NCBI RefSeq assembly: GCF_019599145.1
Contig: NZ_CP080647.1
Location: forward strand, 4,526,001 to 4,590,000
Source of the DNA: Streptomyces akebiae
Lineage (GTDB): Bacteria > Actinomycetota > Actinomycetes > Streptomycetales > Streptomycetaceae
Direction: 5' to 3'
Length of the DNA stretch: 64,000 bases
Under the pieces are notes generated by a model, which saw only the letters and a list, made by a program, of their open reading frames with translations, was not told the origin of the DNA and did not search any database. This document shows positions 47,186 through 55,516 of the stretch, in pieces; positions within the stretch are counted from its first letter, which is position 1; each line of letters opens with the position of its first letter. The translations under genes and the position numbers were made by a program.

Positions 47186-47223
47186 GGGTCTGCAAGGGGC
47201 GCCCGGTGGGTGCCGGACGGGTC

Positions 47224-47403
47224 ATGGCCGAGGAGGTCGGCCAGGCCGCCGGGGCAGGGGTCCTTGATGACCCGGCGGACCGTCGCGCCGCTGGGCGGGA
47301 TGTGCACGGACAGGGCTGTCACGGTGTGGGCACCGAACCGGGCCAGGACGTCCCGAGGGGCCTCGGCCGCCCACTCGCTGATCGCCACGAAACTCCTCGC
47401 CCG
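47224..47403 (-). pseudogene. Remnant of an ISAs1-type transposase
   Basis: The minus strand reads RARSFVAISEWAAEAPRDVL, then ARFGAH, then PPSGATVRRVIKD. This matches the DDE-associated N-terminal region of ISAs1/H-repeat transposases (RSFAAIxEWAAD...PxEATVRRVL). About 60 residues survive with no start, no catalytic domain and no ends visible. Confidence 0.7.
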
Positions 47404-47819
47404 GTCACCACGGCGGGGCAGTCGATCAGCAGGCCAACCAGACACCCTCACAAGATCTGCACCCATCGAACATGATGAGGTGTCAGCTCGCTGTAGCCAG
47501 GGCCGTGTGACGCAGGGTGACGCATGCGGGGTGCGGGGCGCGCGGGCGTGCCCGGAGTGCGGACGCGTGATCAAGCTCGAAGCCCGCCAGGTCTACGGCT
47601 TCCGCAACCGCACCAACCAATGGACTCCCATCACGTTGTGCTACCACCAGGCGCGCTCGCGGACGCCTGCCTCCCCTATCAAGCTCGATGAGCCGCCAAT
47701 CAAGTTGCTGAAAGTTCATATACTTTTTGGGGTACTCTCCTGCCAGCCAAGATCGCGAAGATCAGCGGGTCAAGTCTCGCGACATGCGAGGCCATTCATG
47801 CATGGAGAGGTTGTCAAGC
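47404..47819. other. Left part of the islet, no intact gene
   Basis: Composition drops in GC toward 47640-47740, where CATATACTTTTTGGGGTACT looks like a promoter. A frame near 47540-47640 contains CPECGRVIKLEARQVYGFRN but has no recognisable family. TGATGAGGTGTCAG at 47473-47486 recurs at 52347-52360. Confidence 0.45.
47473..47486. repeat. 14-bp direct repeat, left copy
   Basis: TGATGAGGTGTCAG, identical to 52347-52360. The pair brackets most of the islet at 4.9 kb spacing. Confidence 0.45.
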
Positions 47820-48161
47820 GTGAAGAGTTTACTTTCCGTAAGGGCTCTGGCCGTGGCCGCCATAGTGGGCGGAACGATACTTTCGGCGAGTGGCCCTGCG
47901 GCCGCCGCAGGGCTGCCCAGTAAAGCAAAGGTGACGGGGAGCGCTACCGTCACGAACACATATTCCAATGGTGGCCAGTTCATGTCCATGGATGCTTTGA
48001 TCGCCACCGCGCGCGAAACCGCAGAGTGGGCGGCGAAGCGCCAATGCGAGTCCGGCGAGATCAGGTACAAGCATTCCGAGGTCGTCAATCAGAGCTACGA
48101 GAACGACAAGCAAGCCCAGAAGCAGACCGCGATGGTCACGATTTCCACCAGGTGCTGGTGA
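47820..48161 (+). CDS. Small secreted protein with a TTA codon at position 4
   Basis: A 113-residue protein. GTG 47820 follows GGAGAGG; an in-frame ATG at 47802 is an alternative. A signal peptide (VKSLLSVRALAVAAIVGGTIL then SASGPAAAA-GL) precedes a mature region of about 85 residues: ATVTNTYSNGGQFMSMDALIATARETAEWAAKRQCESGEI, YKHSEVVNQSYENDKQAQKQTAMVTISTRCW, with two cysteines. Codon 4 is TTA (47829-47831), so export should depend on bldA. No family was recognised. Codon use is less GC-biased than neighbours, suggesting recent transfer. Confidence 0.78.
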   Translation: MKSLLSVRALAVAAIVGGTILSASGPAAAAGLPSKAKVTGSATVTNTYSNGGQFMSMDALIATARETAEWAAKRQCESGEIRYKHSEVVNQSYENDKQAQKQTAMVTISTRCW

Positions 48162-48845
48162 GTCGGTCCCGGCAGCTGTAGTTCCTGTTCGTTGACGTAT
48201 TCGTGCTGGTGAGCGGCCTGCTGGGTGCTCGCGGGAGCGAGTGTTTCAGGGCGGCGACGGCGGCGGTGGCCGGCTGTTTCCCGCCACGGGAGTCGCGACT
48301 GCCGGCCAGGGACATGGCCGAGGCGATACTGCCCCCCCCTTTGTCAGGTGTGACCGGCCGTCGACGACTCCAACCCGTCCGCCGGCGCTGCCGCCGTCCG
48401 CCGGATGGAAGTCGGCGGCCTATCCGACCTTCCACCGTTCGATGTGCCTGTGGAACAGCCCCTCCGCCCTCCAAGGGCGGTGGGGCCGGATCTCGTCGGG
48501 ATTCTCTACAAGTTACTGATTGTTCAGAAAGGGATTCCGAGCTTCCGAAGGCGGATGCCGGCACCCCTGACCGAATGGGTTCTGGCGGCAGCAGTGGTCT
48601 TCGCTCCGGACGGCAAGGCGTTTCGGCAGGCGTCCGGTAGTGGGGGGTGCCTGGAAACGGCGTTGAGGGAGGGATTTCCGTTGGGCACCTGGTTCCGGCC
48701 AAGTTTGGCAAAGTGTGTTTTTTCCGTAATCGGGCTGTGTAGTTTTCGAGCGACCTGGAAGGCGTGATTCGTCCTCGGAACAGGCACTCCACGTCGCGGC
48801 GGTCATGCCGGCCTTTCCCCATCGTCCTCGCAGACGGGCATCGTG
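48162..48845. other. AT-richer gap in the islet
   Basis: I see no convincing gene. Composition is mixed, with a T-run near 48716-48722 (GTGTTTTTTCC) that might end or begin transcripts. No ribosome site stands out before the following large gene. Confidence 0.45.
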
Positions 48846-51800
48846 ATGAGTAGTCCGAGCACCGGAACGTCTGGCACCACCCCGGCGAGCAAGACGACGC
48901 CGCCGAGTACCTCGCCGAAGTTCGAAGTGGACAAGGCGATGCTCGACGGACCGACGCCGAAGGACCTGCTTCCGACCACCGGCAACTACCCGGTGGAGAT
49001 CGTCCGGTACCGCTCGGTGGTGCTCACCGACATCCCCGGAGCAAAACCCGCCCGCAAGCTGACCGGTGCCATCGACCTCGGCGAGGAGAACCTGCCGTTC
49101 TACGACCGGCCGGCCGAGGGCATGATCGTCACGACGGAACAGAGCTGGTCGGCCCAGGGCGTCACGCTCGGCCGACTGCTGCACAGCCTCGCACTCGCAC
49201 CGGGCGAAAGCACCAAGGTCGCGGTCGTCGACTGGCAGCGCAGCACCAAGGCCACCGGCACCGAGACGGCTTCCGAGAACGAAACGCTGCTGGGCACCAC
49301 CGACCAGAACCGGTCGATCAGCGAGGTCGCGAACGCGATCGCCCGCGAGGAGCAGTTCGGCACGTCCCAGGCATCCCAGGCAAGCAAGTCGTCCAGCTCC
49401 GGCGGCAGCATCGGCGTCGCGTTCTTCGGTATGGGGGCCGGCGGCAACTGGGGTGAGTCGTCGAACACCGGCTTCACTACAGCGGTGTCGCGCTCCACCG
49501 GCGTGAAGTCGGTCGCGGAGGAGGCGGCGCAGCGTATCAGCGCGCGGACCCAGCAGCTGGCGACCGCGGCCCGCAGCCGGAACATGACGGTCGTGCGTGA
49601 GACGACGCAGTCGGAGAAGGACCAGGTCGTCACCCGCGTCGTCACCAACTACAACCACATGCACGCGATGTCGGTGCAGTACTACGAGGTCGTCCAGGTC
49701 TACAACGTGACGACCAAGCCGACCAAGCTGGAGCGCTGCCTGTTCATTCCGCTGCAGGAGCTCACCTTCAACTACACCAGCCTGCAGCGGTACAAGGAGG
49801 TGCTCGCATCGGTGGCGCCGGCCGACTGGGCGGCGAAGATACGGGCCGCCAACCCGTTTGACACCGCTGTGCGTAAGCTCGACGCGTGCCTGGCACCGGA
49901 GACGCCGTCGGTCCCCCAGGTGTTCGACGGGGTGGATCTGGCCGACATCGCCGCTTCGGCCATGGGCGTGTACGGGGTGCGCAAGTCCGACGGCAGTCCG
50001 GTGAGGTTCGATCCGGTGGCCCGGCAGTGGAACCCGATGCCGACCACCGGACTGAACAGCGAACTGATCCGCATCGCGCCGGGCAAGAACACCGTGTGGG
50101 CGCTCAGGAGCGACAGGCGGCTCGTGCAGTTCGACGGGGCGACCTGGCGAAACGACCCGCAGGGCTGGGCGGGACTGAGCCTCGCATGCGGCTCGGACGG
50201 CACGCTCGTCCTCATCGGCACGGACAGCTCGCTCTACCATCGCGACCCGAACGGCGTATCGCAGAACCTGAGCATCACGGCTGACGATGTCGCCGTCGTC
50301 GGCAAGAACAAGGTGTGGTACTGCCGACAGGGACAGACGTGGGAGCGCAGCGGCGCCAACTGGGTGGAGCGGACTCCGGCGCCGAACGTGCAGCGCCTGT
50401 CCGCCGGCCCGGACGGCGTGCTCTGGGGCATCACGACCGACGGCAAGGCCCTCGTGGTGGAGCCTGGTGCGACAGCCTGGACTGCCCCCAAGTACTTTTC
50501 CGGGGTCCCCGGGATAGTGGATGTCGTCTCGTCCGTCGGCGGGGAGTACTGGGCGCTGACGAGCACCGGGTACGTTCTCCGGCTGCTCACCGCCGCACGC
50601 GAGGCGCCGATCTCCTTCGACGTCCCGCCGAAGACCGACTCTCCCTACGCGTCCAAGATCGACGTCTGGTACGACGAGTTCGGGATACGCAGCCTCCAGG
50701 TGGTCTTCCCGGGCCACACCTTCCGCTGCGGCGACACCGGCGGCTCCGGCGTTCTGCAGCGCGCGTCCTACGCCTTCGGCGGCGCCGACAAGCTGATCTC
50801 CGTCGACGCCTGGTCCGGTACGGCCGCCCGCGGCAGCCTCGCCGGGCTGCGCCTGACGATGACCTCGGGCGTGGCCAACTTCGGGATCGCCGAGACCACC
50901 ACCGTCGCACCCGACCTGACCGAGGATGCCGGTGGCGCGGCCATCTGCGGGCTGTTCGGTTCGACGGTGAAGTCAGGCACCCGCACCTATGTCGCGTCGC
51001 TCGGTTTCCACGTACGAGGCGGGAACGTGCCGCAGGCGGTCCTGGACCACCTGAACGACAACCGCCGCCACTACAGCCAGGCCGTGTGGGCCAACGCCGA
51101 CGAGCTGACGCTCAGCCGCATCCTCGCCAACTACTCGTACACCCCGCCGGGCTCGAACGCTGCGCCTGTCCTGCTCGGCACGCTGCTGGATCCGAAGCCG
51201 GTCGCTGCCACCGGCAACTATCTCGGCTTCCGGTGGAACTTCGGCAGTGAGCAGGAACGAGAGGCGTGGACCAAGGCCCGGCAGCCGGGCGATGCCACCT
51301 TCGGGGCACCCGTGACCAACACGATCGCCATCGCCACCAAGGGTGTCTTCGCCGAGGCCGTACTGGGCCGGGCCAACTCGGCGGAGAAGATCGACCTCAC
51401 CCGATTCTGGAACTGGAAGGACTCGCCCATCCAGATCACGCCGGCCGACATCGCACCGGTCTCCACCGCGTCGCGGGCGCAGAACCTCGACGTCACGGCG
51501 GCCGGTATGGGTGCTTCCCAGGCGAAGTTCACGCCGCTCGCGGCGATGCCCGACCCGACCGCCCTACAAGCGGCGCAGGCCATCGCCACCGCGAACCTGT
51601 TCCGCGACATGAGCGGCCTCAGCAACATGAGCCAGGTGCTCACCAAGGGCATCGAATCCGCTGCCGGCAACGACAAGGACGCCGGCGAACGTGCCCAGGC
51701 CGCCATGAAGACCGCCACCGAACACCTGCAGAAGATGGCCCAGATCGCCGTCGACGCTGCCGGCAAGGCGGCACCCCTCGTGACCGGTGGCGGCAGCAAC

Positions 51801-51881
51801 CTCAGCGCCCTCGGTGGCATGCTGAACCAGGGCGGCAAGGCCGATGAGCCGTCCGACAACGGGTCCGCAGCGAAATCCTGA
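48846..51881 (+). CDS. Large modular protein: unassigned N-terminal region, tectonin-like propeller, jacalin-like lectin domain, helical tail
   Basis: A 1011-1012-residue protein without signal peptide or clear membrane helix. Residues 1-320 are an unassigned domain: YRSVVLTDIPGAKPARKL, GVTLGRLLHSLALAPGESTKVAVVDWQR, a Ser/Gly-rich spacer, a helical segment (SVAEEAAQRISARTQQLATAA), then TRVVTNYNHMHAMSVQYYEV. Residues about 350-570 carry roughly six tectonin-like units (LIRIAPGKNTVWALRSD; RLSAGPDGVLWGITTDG; VVSSVGGEYWALTSTG). About 600-735 resembles a jacalin-type lectin (LRLTMTSGVANFG; AICGLFGSTVKSG). The tail (880-1012) is helical. ATG 48846 or GTG 48843 starts it; no ribosome site is visible. 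Lectin and tectonin folds suggest binding of glycans or lipopolysaccharide; function unknown. Confidence 0.75.
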   Translation: MSSPSTGTSGTTPASKTTPPSTSPKFEVDKAMLDGPTPKDLLPTTGNYPVEIVRYRSVVLTDIPGAKPARKLTGAIDLGEENLPFYDRPAEGMIVTTEQSWSAQGVTLGRLLHSLALAPGESTKVAVVDWQRSTKATGTETASENETLLGTTDQNRSISEVANAIAREEQFGTSQASQASKSSSSGGSIGVAFFGMGAGGNWGESSNTGFTTAVSRSTGVKSVAEEAAQRISARTQQLATAARSRNMTVVRETTQSEKDQVVTRVVTNYNHMHAMSVQYYEVVQVYNVTTKPTKLERCLFIPLQELTFNYTSLQRYKEVLASVAPADWAAKIRAANPFDTAVRKLDACLAPETPSVPQVFDGVDLADIAASAMGVYGVRKSDGSPVRFDPVARQWNPMPTTGLNSELIRIAPGKNTVWALRSDRRLVQFDGATWRNDPQGWAGLSLACGSDGTLVLIGTDSSLYHRDPNGVSQNLSITADDVAVVGKNKVWYCRQGQTWERSGANWVERTPAPNVQRLSAGPDGVLWGITTDGKALVVEPGATAWTAPKYFSGVPGIVDVVSSVGGEYWALTSTGYVLRLLTAAREAPISFDVPPKTDSPYASKIDVWYDEFGIRSLQVVFPGHTFRCGDTGGSGVLQRASYAFGGADKLISVDAWSGTAARGSLAGLRLTMTSGVANFGIAETTTVAPDLTEDAGGAAICGLFGSTVKSGTRTYVASLGFHVRGGNVPQAVLDHLNDNRRHYSQAVWANADELTLSRILANYSYTPPGSNAAPVLLGTLLDPKPVAATGNYLGFRWNFGSEQEREAWTKARQPGDATFGAPVTNTIAIATKGVFAEAVLGRANSAEKIDLTRFWNWKDSPIQITPADIAPVSTASRAQNLDVTAAGMGASQAKFTPLAAMPDPTALQAAQAIATANLFRDMSGLSNMSQVLTKGIESAAGNDKDAGERAQAAMKTATEHLQKMAQIAVDAAGKAAPLVTGGGSNLSALGGMLNQGGKADEPSDNGSAAKS

Positions 51882-51994
51882 TCACCGGCACCACGCGGGT
51901 CCGGGCCGCCGCCCGGGCCCGCCCCGGCAACCGCCACGACGCCACCCAACTCCGGCTGCTGCTCGACGCCATGAGGCCGATCCGGGGCCTGTGA
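51875..51994 (+). pseudogene. Remnant of an IS5-type transposase
   Basis: The frame starting at 51875 reads ILITGTTRVRAAARARPGNR, then HDATQLRLLLDAMRPIRGL and stop. This matches the GNRxDxTQLxPLLxAxPPIRG stretch of Streptomyces IS5-family DDE transposases. It overlaps the 3' end of the large modular gene by 7 bp, so the islet gene may have been joined to it by insertion or deletion. Confidence 0.6.
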
Positions 51995-52522
51995 CCTGTG
52001 CACCACCCCGCACTACCGCACACCCCTTGAGCGCCGCCTCAGTCAGGCCCCGTGATCGCCCGGCGCGCCGACTGGGGCGGTGGTGCTGGTGCCGGGAGCC
52101 TCACCGGAAGGCGGACCACTTTATGCGCTGGGAGGCGGTACGAGCGCGCGACACGCCGCCTCGGTCGCTTATCGGAAAAGAATTTTGAGCGAGTGTCAGG
52201 TGCGCGCCGCGGACGCGACCTGACGTGCGATCAGCGCGAGAACAGCGAGCGAGGCATACCCGCAGCCTCCAACAGGGTGACGACACGTCAGCACGCGCCG
52301 GTGTAGAGCCGACCGCGATTCGAAATACCAGCTCATTGCCATATTTTGATGAGGTGTCAGGCACGCCGACCGTCACCCTCCGGAGCGACAATCCATGCGC
52401 CCATTCGGCCTCTTTTCCGACCCCACCTCAGCCCTCCTCGACATGACAGCGGAAATGGCCGTCATTACGTTCGTTCTCGTCGGCAGGTCCTGTCGACGAG
52501 AACGAAGAGAAGGGGAAGTGCA
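51995..52522. other. Right part of the islet, no intact gene
   Basis: No gene is seen. An AT-rich patch near 52335-52352 precedes the right copy of the 14-bp repeat. GTTCGTTCTCGTCGGCA and GTCGACGAGAACGAA (52470-52505) form a hairpin just before the next gene. Confidence 0.45.
52347..52360. repeat. 14-bp direct repeat, right copy
   Basis: TGATGAGGTGTCAG, identical to 47473-47486. It could be a duplicated target, an IS end, or chance. Confidence 0.45.
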
Positions 52523-53134
52523 TTGCGCACTCGTAAGATCACAGTGATCGCCGCCTCCGTCGGCGTGGCAGTCGCGGCCGCCACCGGTGTCACCTACGCC
52601 AGCTCCGCCCTGGAGTCGGCCCCCAAGTCCGCCTCGGCCATCACCGACGCCGCCCCGGCCCCCCGCGGCGGCAACGGCACGGGCACCAGCGCCGGCTCGA
52701 ACGCCGCCAACGCCCCGGCCGACGCGGGTGCGTCGGACAACTTCAACGGCCCCCGGAAGGGCAACGAGGGCCGCGGCGCGGGTCGTGGCGAGCACCGCCG
52801 GGACGAGGGTCAGATTCAGGTCAACGAGCGCGTGTACGGCGCCGAGCCGGGGTCCTGCATCGCCGTGGTCAACGTGCGCCACGGGCAGGGCCAGAACCAG
52901 AACCAGAACCAGGGCCAGGGCCAGAACCAGGGCCGCGGTCAGGAGGGCGCCAGCAGCTTCAACATCCGGAACGACAGCGACAGGACCGTCGAATTCTTCA
53001 ACGGGATCACCTGCGACAACGGGGCTCCCGTCGCCACGGTCGGACCGCACAGTTCCAGCAGCGCGGTCGAAGGGGACCGGGAGGGACAGCTCCTCATCGG
53101 CAGCTTCCGCGTCGTCGGAAACGGCCACTGGTGA
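52523..53134 (+). CDS. Secreted low-complexity protein, unknown function
   Basis: A 203-residue protein. The TTG is 7 nt after AAGGGG. Signal peptide: LRTRKITVIAASVGVAVAAA then TGVTYASSA. The mature part has an Ala/Gly/Asn-rich linker, a basic stretch (GRGEHRRDEGQ), a core with two cysteines (EPGSCIAVVNV; NGITCDNGAP), an insert of NQNQNQGQGQNQG repeats, and beta-type sequence (SFNIRNDSDRTVEFFNG; LLIGSFRVVG). Possibly a surface or spore-coat-associated protein. Followed by a strong terminator. Confidence 0.72.
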   Translation: MRTRKITVIAASVGVAVAAATGVTYASSALESAPKSASAITDAAPAPRGGNGTGTSAGSNAANAPADAGASDNFNGPRKGNEGRGAGRGEHRRDEGQIQVNERVYGAEPGSCIAVVNVRHGQGQNQNQNQGQGQNQGRGQEGASSFNIRNDSDRTVEFFNGITCDNGAPVATVGPHSSSSAVEGDREGQLLIGSFRVVGNGHW

Positions 53135-53179
53135 TAACCGAGAAGGCAAGCACACACCCCGGAATACCCAGGTATCGGA

Positions 53180-53210
53180 AACCCCGGCTCGCCGTAATCG
53201 AGCCGGGGTT
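53180..53210 (+). terminator. Perfect 12-bp hairpin
   Basis: AACCCCGGCTCG pairs with CGAGCCGGGGTT around CCGTAAT, 45 bp after the secreted protein. It can also act on the opposite strand for the DUF397 gene. Confidence 0.85.
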
Positions 53211-53252
53211 CCGGCACGGGGGCATCCCTACGGGATTACCTTTCCATGTTAG

Positions 53253-53453
53253 TCAGCGCGGCACGACCGTCCCGGCGACGGCGCCGAGAAAAGCGCGCCA
53301 TCCGGCGGGTGAGATGTGCAGGAGGGGGCCGTGGGGGTTCTTGCTGTCGCGGATGGCTCGGCCGCCGGTGGAGATGGGGGCGACCTCGACGCATTCGCCT
53401 TGTGACGTGGAGTACGAAGACTTCCGGAAGGGGCCTATGAACTCAGGGGTCAC
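53253..53453 (-). CDS. DUF397 protein
   Basis: A 66-residue protein of the DUF397 family found almost only beside XRE regulators in Streptomyces, in whiJ-like clusters. The sequence contains FRKSSYSTSQGECVEVAPI, then AIRDSKNPHGPLLHISPAGWRAFL, matching the conserved WRKSSYSxxxxxCVEVA...RDSKxPxGPxL...W pattern. The GTG overlaps the stop of the XRE gene as GTGA. It probably modulates the XRE protein. Confidence 0.92.
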   Translation of the reverse strand: MTPEFIGPFRKSSYSTSQGECVEVAPISTGGRAIRDSKNPHGPLLHISPAGWRAFLGAVAGTVVPR

Positions 53454-54319
53454 GATGCATCGTCCTTGCTTCTTTGTAGTGCACGCCGAATGAGCTGCGC
53501 GCTCGCGTCCGGTGCCAGCGCGGCCGATCGTAGTTGGTCGAAGGCAAGGGTGTAAGCGGCGAGATCCTCGGGCGCCTCAAGGATCGAGGTTCCCCGCAGG
53601 TTGTCCAACGTCACGGCCTCGACGACCGGTTCGGCGTCGAAGCTGAAGGAGGCGAACGCGGAGATCTCACCGGCGAGTGTCCCCGCACTCACCGGGAGGA
53701 CCTGAATGGTCACATTCTTCCGCTGCCCGACTTCCAAGATGCGTTCGAGCTGCTCACGGTGGCTCTCGGCACGCACCAGAGGATGAATGATCACGGGCTC
53801 CCAGATGATGGCCGTGTACGCCGTCTCCCCTTCGTCGATCTTCTCCTGCCGCGCTTCCCGCACCTTGACCAACTGGGCCACGCGTTCCGGAGGGACATAG
53901 CTGGGCCCAGAGGTGATGACGGACTCGGCATAGGCGGGCGTTTGCAGCAGGCCCGGCATCAGCACCTGCGCCCAGACCCGAATGTGCGTCGCGTCGCCCT
54001 CCAGAGAGATGTAGTCGAGGTAATTCGGCCGCAGGTGCTCCGCATGTTCGAGCCACCACCCGCGGTGCTTGGACCTCTTCGCCAAGTCCTCCAGTTTGGC
54101 GAGGACTTCGGGGTCGTCGACGCCGTACGCGTTCAGCAGCACGCGGATCTCGACGATGCGTGCGGTCACATGCCCGCTCTCTATGCGGCTGATCCGAGTC
54201 TGATGCACCCCGAGTACGTCCGCCGCCTGCGGCTGATCCAGCTTGGCGGCCTACCTATACCTCTTGAGCGCGGCGCCAAGTCGCCTACTGCGTACGGTCG
54301 GCCGTCCCCCTGCGGGCAT
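53450..54319 (-). pseudogene. XRE-family regulator with DUF5753, amber codon in the HTH
   Basis: From ATG 54319 (ribosome site AGGGG) the frame reads MPAGGRPTVRSRRLGAALKR, then YR, a TAG stop at 54251-54253, and continues in frame AAKLDQPQAADVLGVHQTRI with the rest of the domain. Family members have Glu (GAG) where the TAG is, so one base change broke it. Downstream the protein is complete through the DUF5753 ligand domain (LMPGLLQTPAYAESVI; VLPVSAGTLAGEISAFASF). A GTG at 54208 could restart translation and give 252 residues lacking the first HTH helices. Coupled to DUF397. Confidence 0.8.
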
Positions 54320-54432
54320 TGCTTCCCCTCTCCGGCGAGGTTTCCGAGCCACCACTCTAGGGCGATGACGGCTCCCAGCAATCCACTCCTTCGCATACAT
54401 GCTCTTCATCTTGTTGCTGAAAAGCAGGCTCG

Positions 54433-54450
54433 CACTCTAACCTCAGAGTG
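54433..54450. promoter_or_regulatory. Palindrome between the XRE and HATPase genes
   Basis: CACTCT-AACCTC-AGAGTG, perfect 6-bp arms in the divergent region, a likely operator for the XRE regulator. The same CACTCT/AGAGTG half-sites occur in the inverted pair at 4072/4167. Confidence 0.5.
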
Positions 54451-54502
54451 AGCGCACCACTACTCGGCGCTACTTGACTGCACGTCAGGGGGTCTATTAG
54501 CC

Positions 54503-54916
54503 ATGCCCGCTCTCACCCCACGTCGCGACTCCTTCCGTATCCCCAAGCGCGGAAGACACGTCCCCGAAGCCCGCGCCCACGTGCGGCGGATCCTCAAGGA
54601 CTGGGCGCTCGACGGTGAACTCGCCCATGACGTCGCCACCGTGGCCACGGAACTCGTAACGAACGCGGTCCGGCACTGCCGGGTGCCCCGCGCCGAGGTC
54701 GAGGTGGTGGTGTCGGTCCGGGGCTGCGGCGTACTGGTCGAGGTGTCGGATCCGGACAAGCAGAAGGTGCCGACACTGCGGGACGGGGACGCCGAACGGG
54801 ACGGCGGGCGCGGACTCGTGCTGGTCGACACGCTCTCCGAACGGTGGGGGCACGAAGCGCGGCCGTTCACCAAGTGCGTGTGGGCGTACTTCGTGATCCC
54901 GGGGCGGGCGCGGTGA
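54503..54916 (+). CDS. Small HATPase (RsbW/anti-sigma-regulatory-kinase-like)
   Basis: A 137-residue ATP-binding protein. It has the GHKL motifs ATVATELVTNAVRHCRV (N box), VEVSDPDKQKV (G1) and RDGGRGLVLVDTLSERWGH (G2). Such single-domain proteins are kinases of anti-anti-sigma factors or simple ATP-binding partners, and are regular members of whiJ/abaA-type clusters with XRE and DUF397. No strong ribosome site lies before the ATG. It is coupled by GTGA to the next small gene. Confidence 0.9.
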   Translation: MPALTPRRDSFRIPKRGRHVPEARAHVRRILKDWALDGELAHDVATVATELVTNAVRHCRVPRAEVEVVVSVRGCGVLVEVSDPDKQKVPTLRDGDAERDGGRGLVLVDTLSERWGHEARPFTKCVWAYFVIPGRAR

Positions 54917-55164
54917 GCGCGGCGGCGCTGAGCCCGTACCGCGGGCGGTGGCGGCGTTGGGCTGCCCGGGCGGAGCGCTATCGGGCCACGTACGGCCGGT
55001 GGTTGCCGTTTCCGCCACGCGAGCCCTGCTGGGAGAGGCGGCCGATGAGAGCGTTGCCCGTGCGCGCCGTATTCATGGGTGGTCCACACGTGGGTGAAGA
55101 AGACGAGGGAGGCCTCGTGCGGGCGTATGTCACGGCGTACCTGGGGGAGGGACGTACGGCATGA
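54913..55164 (+). CDS. Small basic protein, unknown
   Basis: An 83-residue protein. The GTG overlaps the TGA of the HATPase gene, and its own TGA overlaps the next ATG, so it is sandwiched in a coupled trio. The sequence is Arg/Trp-rich (YRGRWRRWAARAERYRATYGRW), then FMGGPHVGEEDEGGLVRAYV. No family recognised. The overlaps on both sides support its being real. Confidence 0.68.
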   Translation: MSAAALSPYRGRWRRWAARAERYRATYGRWLPFPPREPCWERRPMRALPVRAVFMGGPHVGEEDEGGLVRAYVTAYLGEGRTA

Positions 55165-55373
55165 CCGACGAAACGACGAAACCGGCAGGGGGCTCCGCCC
55201 CGCCCACCGACCCCGTCCTGGCCACGTTCAGCGACTGGCTGGACCATGCCGTGGCCTGCGTGGACGCGTGCCGGAGGGACGGTGTCTCGTGCCTGCACTC
55301 GATGCGGCTGGCCAAACGTCACCGCGCGGCCAGGAAGGCGGCGGGAGCGGCGCGGCGGAACAGCTCGGACTGA
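55161..55373 (+). CDS. Small Cys-containing protein, unknown
   Basis: A 70-residue protein. ATG overlaps the previous stop (ATGA). It has a helical amphipathic core, VLATFSDWLDHAVACVDACRRDGVSCLHSMRLAKRHRAARK, with three cysteines spaced four and eight apart and a basic tail. No family recognised. It is the third gene of the HATPase trio. Confidence 0.68.
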   Translation: MTDETTKPAGGSAPPTDPVLATFSDWLDHAVACVDACRRDGVSCLHSMRLAKRHRAARKAAGAARRNSSD

Positions 55374-55516
55374 GCCCGGCTGGGCGTGGCTCCGGTGTGG
55401 CTCCGGCGCGCCGGAGCCGGAGCTACGCCGTCGGCGAGGTTGGGGACGAGGGTGCCGGGGAGGCTGCCGCCAGGGACGCACCCAGGCCCTGTCGTCGGCG
55501 ATGAACGGGCCGCCGG

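Follow-up and report, generated by a model that had tools for sequence, protein, structure and literature searches.

The trunk-and-head gene and its domains

The window analyzed here, a 64,000-nucleotide stretch of Streptomyces akebiae DNA (NZ_CP080647.1, positions 4,526,001 to 4,590,000), contains an open reading frame at 48846 to 51881 on the forward strand that encodes a protein of 1011 amino acids. This protein has a single match in its 10.5-Mb source genome. Its layout consists of two conserved trunk segments (residues 36-345, at 48951 to 49880, and residues 730-880, at 51033 to 51485, the latter kept across the family) with a lectin-type head inserted between them. The head comprises a six-bladed tectonin-type propeller, present in the predicted model at residues 356-582 (49911 to 50591), followed by a jacalin-like prism, supported by the model and a profile match, at residues 604-727 (50655 to 51026). 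A conserved helical tail (residues 895-975; 51528 to 51770), seen in the model and a profile scan, leads to the tail motif NLSALGGMLN (residues 985-994; 51798 to 51827), and the protein ends 17 residues past this motif, with no C-terminal extension. All of these features, and the flanking signals described below, lie on the forward strand.

An initial annotation of this DNA had proposed a modular lectin-type protein lacking a signal peptide, and both of the folds it named, tectonin and jacalin, were found; the layout is confirmed, and the accompanying interpretation is supported in part. The propeller is evident from the model; the Pfam Tectonin score of the protein was 23.3 bits, below the cutoff of 30, and thus does not confer Pfam membership. 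Several close relatives are annotated with PF19193 in the source database. Likewise, the protein's own sequence has no Pfam Jacalin match and hence no Pfam membership, and the profile A4 matched jacalin-type structures (7kmv; E = 2.8e-4). A hydrophobic N-terminal start is missing, as predicted, and occurs in only 4 of 214 family proteins. Its absence suggests that release would proceed without Sec. We also looked for a trypsin-like domain and a secretion signal in the window protein and found neither.

The fold of the first trunk segment was not recognized. It contains long strands at residues 90-117 and 275-302 and a Ser/Gly-rich hairpin region flanked by two helices (residues 155-245; 49308 to 49580), most of which is modeled with low confidence. 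This hairpin prompted an alternative reading in which the trunk would be a membrane-active, pore-forming module of the aerolysin/Toxin_10 kind: the long strands of both trunk parts would form one sheet, and the hairpin would insert into the target membrane after the lectins dock. Weak matches to Cry78Aa point the same way. However, matches nearly as weak were obtained to single-chain variable fragment (scFv) chains with Gly/Ser linkers, and an alternation test was negative in 31 sequences, and we regard a pore-forming trunk as improbable.

Variation within the head

Among 58 actinobacterial orthologues, the head and trunk differ markedly in conservation. The propeller had a mean entropy of 1.32 bits, compared with 0.74 for the tail, 0.63 for the prism, and 0.47 and 0.42 for the two trunk parts. 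The most variable part of the propeller by entropy and by the ratio of nonsynonymous to synonymous substitution (dN/dS) spans residues 425-582 (50118 to 50591). In 13 sequences compared as 78 non-independent pairs, both dN and dN/dS were greater in the propeller in every pair (78/78), with median dN/dS values of 0.27 for the trunk, 0.41 for the prism, and 0.80 for the propeller. The most extreme pair (P0044/P0048) showed a trunk distance of 0.013 and a propeller distance of 0.375; two proteins both named from Kitasatospora sp. NPDC096140 (P0028/P0029) were separated by 0.048 and 0.362, respectively. Within residues 425-582, 29 positions are conserved at 90% or more; the propeller fold is thus retained as the remaining positions vary.

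A probably mobile gene with presumed signals on both sides

The gene lies in an 8.3-kb accessory islet (47190 to 55505) that extends from a DAGK-type gene, beside purA, to a MarR-type gene. We compared these flanks with those of ten relatives in whose genomes the protein was not matched. The two flanking genes were separated by 19 to 129 bp in four of the ten, by 435 and 740 bp in two, by 1.7 kb in one, and by 5.7 kb in another (L087). One relative (L084) lacked the MarR and ABC genes, and shared sequence resumed 2.4 kb further along; the right flank of L088 was not seen in the stretch compared. This comparison bears out the islet claimed in the initial annotation. The 5.7-kb stretch of L087 (genome G011) carries different content at the same site, which is possibly an insertion hotspot. 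A DUF5753/HTH regulator and HATPase gene pair within the islet (53450 to 54916) had no blastn match there in any of the ten relatives.

Directly upstream of the gene, a conserved block (48690 to 48845) is the presumed promoter and leader and appears to move with the gene. This sequence had a blastn match in 10 of 22 actinobacterial loci (short or partial in L103 and L071), and the ATG at 48846 was retained in all nine upstream regions that were aligned. The core of the block, GCTGTGTAGTTTTCGAG, occurs exactly only once in the genome; with three mismatches allowed, nine matches were retrieved, versus three for the reversed control. Downstream, a conserved GC-rich hairpin (51895 to 51922), the presumed terminator, was likewise matched at 10 of the 22 actinobacterial loci, among which L005 and L072 represent one genome. 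For the hairpin stretch, the folding energy in the window is -31.9 kcal/mol (z = -2.1), and five relatives gave z values of -1.7 to -5.0. Besides the trunk gene, no open reading frame family was common to at least three actinobacterial loci, and across 54 loci, with up to 10 kb on each side, the sole other family found in at least three was that of a small partner gene described below. Given flanking matches without a shared neighbor, what moves is probably one gene together with its own signals.

Remnants of repeated sequence flank the gene on both sides: an insertion sequence (IS)-like remnant at 47228 to 47432, with 73% identity to a sequence found in six copies in genome G104, and a second remnant at 51925 to 51991, probably a transposase end. 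These remnants, together with two disrupted relatives, could be taken to mean that the gene is a decaying passenger of the islet with no present function. We consider this quite improbable, as the reading frame is intact, the upstream block and 3' hairpin are conserved, and trunk dN/dS was 0.06 to 0.32 in the nine pairs shown.

The gene is sparsely distributed. It was carried by 2 of 37 same-genus genomes, including its own, and in changing places. Homologues are not confined to core housekeeping loci, so neither this pattern nor a lack of the two folds, the outcomes that the initial annotation had named as refuting its reading, was observed. A wider search matched 11 of 295 genomes (six close orthologues, its own counted, and five distant relatives), which may be an undercount because just two candidates were scored per genome. 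A profile search across the phylum gave 8 matches in 296 genomes, two of them strong, again counting its own.

Beyond Streptomyces, the trunk forms the core of a family that spans phyla. Two database searches returned 308 and 841 overlapping hits, of which 120 relatives were listed per search; all were retrieved by matches that take in the trunk, and every member therefore has it by construction. These relatives are spread over many phyla (53 loci), in bacteria and some archaea, and 29 plasmid records carry one, with hosts that include Streptomyces clavuligerus, Embleya, Novosphingobium, Polaromonas, Nostoc, Psychrobacter, and the haloarchaeon Haladaptatus. We found no description of the family in an open-license literature library, and publication elsewhere is possible. 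Tandem pairs of trunk genes occur in two loci (L023 and L042, from Paraliomyxa and a Methanosarcinales bin). In a comparison with BFVD, the core model resembled a protein of a giant virus (Yasminevirus A0A5K0U6Q4; E = 1.4e-7; 17% identity).

Among the more distant members listed, trunk length is mostly steadier than that of the rest. The first trunk part (columns of residues 34-330) spans 294 to 324 residues, apart from P0091 and P0097, where it reaches about 500, and the second spans 123 to 148, one partial sequence aside. By comparison, the middle segment ranges from 141 to 427 residues, and the stretch past residue 996 ranges from 0 to 421. A profile scan of 214 proteins detected propeller and prism in 69, the prism only in 6, the propeller only in 1, and neither in 138. 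The two lectin modules of the window protein are one of several alternative inserts, which, like the hypervariability of the propeller and the breadth of the family, goes beyond what the initial annotation described.

The C-terminal extensions of distant relatives are unlike one another in sequence. A precomputed Pfam domain was available for 14 of the 145 proteins P0070 to P0214: LysM, Hedgehog-type/DD-peptidase-like (n = 2), M23, Amidase_6 (n = 3), PF13354 (n = 2), DUF2272, GATase with C26, PF16640, PF02563, and one tectonin. By our count, ten of the 14 are of cell wall type; where the domain position was seen, for some of these relatives, it was C-terminal. A classification paper describes Amidase_6 proteins as peptidoglycan amidase effectors (e.g., Tae3) and DUF2272 proteins as plant cell wall-degrading enzymes or peptidoglycan amidases (e.g., Tse1) (PMC10318531). 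The relative on the Haladaptatus plasmid (L102) is annotated with DUF2272, a domain associated elsewhere with peptidoglycan amidases. The organism group to which Haladaptatus belongs is not known to have peptidoglycan. A distant Streptomyces relative of 1671 amino acids (L074:7245-12260, genome G122) carries an N-terminal helix-hairpin-helix domain and a C-terminal HEFGH motif, which we take to be metallopeptidase-like.

The tail motif was recognized in most of the members inspected. In 22 of the 53 loci, a small protein gene lies downstream of the trunk gene, directly after it in 19; all but one of the 22 are outside Actinomycetota, the exception being an Acidimicrobiia bin (L051). The small partner carries the motif PxNITEIGGYxNLL (loci L026 to L054, e.g., L048:13834-14148 and L046:12651-13646), and a longer form, mostly of 322 to 338 amino acids, shares one homologous C-terminal part. 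Profile comparison of the tail motif with the core of the partner gave a pairwise E value of 0.0011 and a probability of 20% over 17 columns; on these values, a relationship between the two is no more than suggestive.

Proposed function and comparison with known systems

We propose that the window gene encodes a lectin-aimed recognition protein, borne on a mobile cassette and used in antagonism, a reading to which we assign a probability of roughly 0.5. The self-contained cassette would comprise its own upstream block, one open reading frame, and its own 3' hairpin, and its product would be a chimerolectin-type protein with a propeller and prism head set into a two-part trunk. The propeller would probably bind a surface glycan of another organism, and changes in that target would drive its own rapid change. 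Synthesis is probably cytoplasmic, and the protein would leave the cell by lysis or by an unrecognized non-Sec route. Many distant relatives share the trunk but bear other inserts and, behind the short tail motif, C-terminal extensions that are unrelated to one another; most of the few recognizable ones are cell wall enzymes or binding domains. From this we derive the idea of a family of effectors that are aimed by lectins and serve in antagonism. The layout, the changing genomic place, the hypervariable head, and the exchange of inserts and extensions are computed results, and glycan binding, action on another organism, and release are inferred from them. Recognition is the best-supported step, as the head changes while the trunk stays. 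Antagonism appears the likeliest use because inserts are exchanged, genomic place changes, and some relatives bear cell wall-type domains.

Several observations weigh against this proposal. Propeller dN/dS exceeded 1 in just 11 of the 78 pairs, propeller dS was also raised (median ratio, 1.32), and the propeller loops were barely more variable than the strands (1.46 versus 1.21 bits); a dN/dS of 0.8 may come partly from relaxed constraint. An internal stop interrupts the gene in two of the six close carriers, and the gene is therefore dispensable. No recognizable immunity gene was present in the 10 neighboring open reading frames, nor any shared neighbor in actinobacterial loci, although one of an unfamiliar type may have escaped recognition; no secretion route was identified, and the window protein contains no payload. 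Finally, a direct scan recognized an extension domain in 4 of 34 relatives and no Pfam match in the other 30, and ten extension pieces yielded none above the cutoff, with seven lacking any match.

Some of these points favor a different reading, in which the protein is the producer's own cytoplasmic or cell surface adhesin or glycan sensor, serving kin recognition or development rather than as a weapon. The Streptomyces form lacks a payload, no immunity gene was recognized, and lectin folds alone do not show toxicity. In contrast, the distribution is sparse, place-changing, partly plasmid-borne, and trans-phylum, and some distant relatives carry cell wall enzymes. We therefore judge an adhesin or sensor unlikely. 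The glycan sensor suggested initially is thus still conceivable, but the changing head is more in keeping with recognition of targets that themselves change.

The expectation that homologues recur beside contractile injection or secretion genes was not supported. No contractile injection family was found among neighbors common to at least three loci. In six plasmid stretches, the sole annotated secretion-type genes formed one fimbrial usher operon. Four of 6 carriers had sheath family genes, as did 13 of 21 noncarriers, a small sample in which prophage sheaths cannot be separated from injection systems. Although the missing signal peptide and a sheath family gene at 3.17 Mb in the source genome would suit cargo of such a system, that gene lies about 1.4 Mb from the trunk gene, and this reading seems highly improbable. 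In two of the six plasmid stretches (L101, Psychrobacter; L102, Haladaptatus), a Fic family gene is annotated within a few kilobases of the trunk gene.

A broader version of the proposed recognition protein is possible, and we advance it as a whole only tentatively: an unnamed class of lectin-aimed machines in bacteria and haloarchaea. The split trunk would have a new fold, and the exchangeable insert could be propeller and prism, either alone, a coiled coil, or a short domain. Exchangeable, often cell wall-active domains would follow the motif N-[IL]-[ST]-x-x-G-[GA]-x-x-N, which in many Firmicutes, Bacteroidales, and one archaeal bin would sit in the separate downstream small protein. With no dedicated secretion system, the trunk would bring its cargo, or itself, into or across the envelope of the target.

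If the proposal is correct, an unrecognized kind of effector guided by recognition is common to Streptomyces and many unrelated microbes, and its head evolves in the manner of a receptor-binding domain. It would open two questions to direct testing, namely, which surface glycans drive the arms race and how proteins of this size act when no secretion system is known for them, and would offer a common frame for hundreds of nameless proteins.

The nearest working analogues are the umbrella toxins and the proteins of PMC12419801; by the features tested, the window protein belongs to neither. Umbrella toxins (UmbA/B/C), as described in PMC11062931 and PMC13274773, similarly use exchangeable, diversified propeller lectins as heads, which aim an antibacterial Streptomyces protein; according to the latter, these lectins bind a teichuronic acid-like wall glycopolymer of the target Streptomyces. 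They are, however, multiprotein particles with secretion signals, a trypsin-like UmbA, an ALF-repeat UmbC, and toxin tips, whereas the system here is one gene with a different trunk, no signal, and no trypsin-like domain found. No Pfam match to the ALF repeat occurred in the 10 open reading frames scanned at the locus; the genome was not searched for one. The toxin-type proteins of PMC12419801 tend to lack a signal peptide, secretion system, and immunity gene, but the part that these "broken-hairpin" toxins share is a short C-terminal hairpin domain rather than a large split trunk. Polymorphic toxin systems, as described in PMC3482391, resemble the distant relatives in pairing a conserved part with highly variable C-terminal domains; they differ in that no cognate immunity gene was recognized here and the window protein has no variable C-terminal toxin domain. 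Tectonin and fishelectin lectins show 13 to 18% identity to the modeled propeller, which here sits inside a large protein. The fungal chimerolectin CCTX2, with its beta-trefoil lectins, is likened to the window protein by description, not by sequence: PMC13324453 presents it as a cytoplasmic multilectin protein used against predators, with an effector domain to which no activity is assigned.
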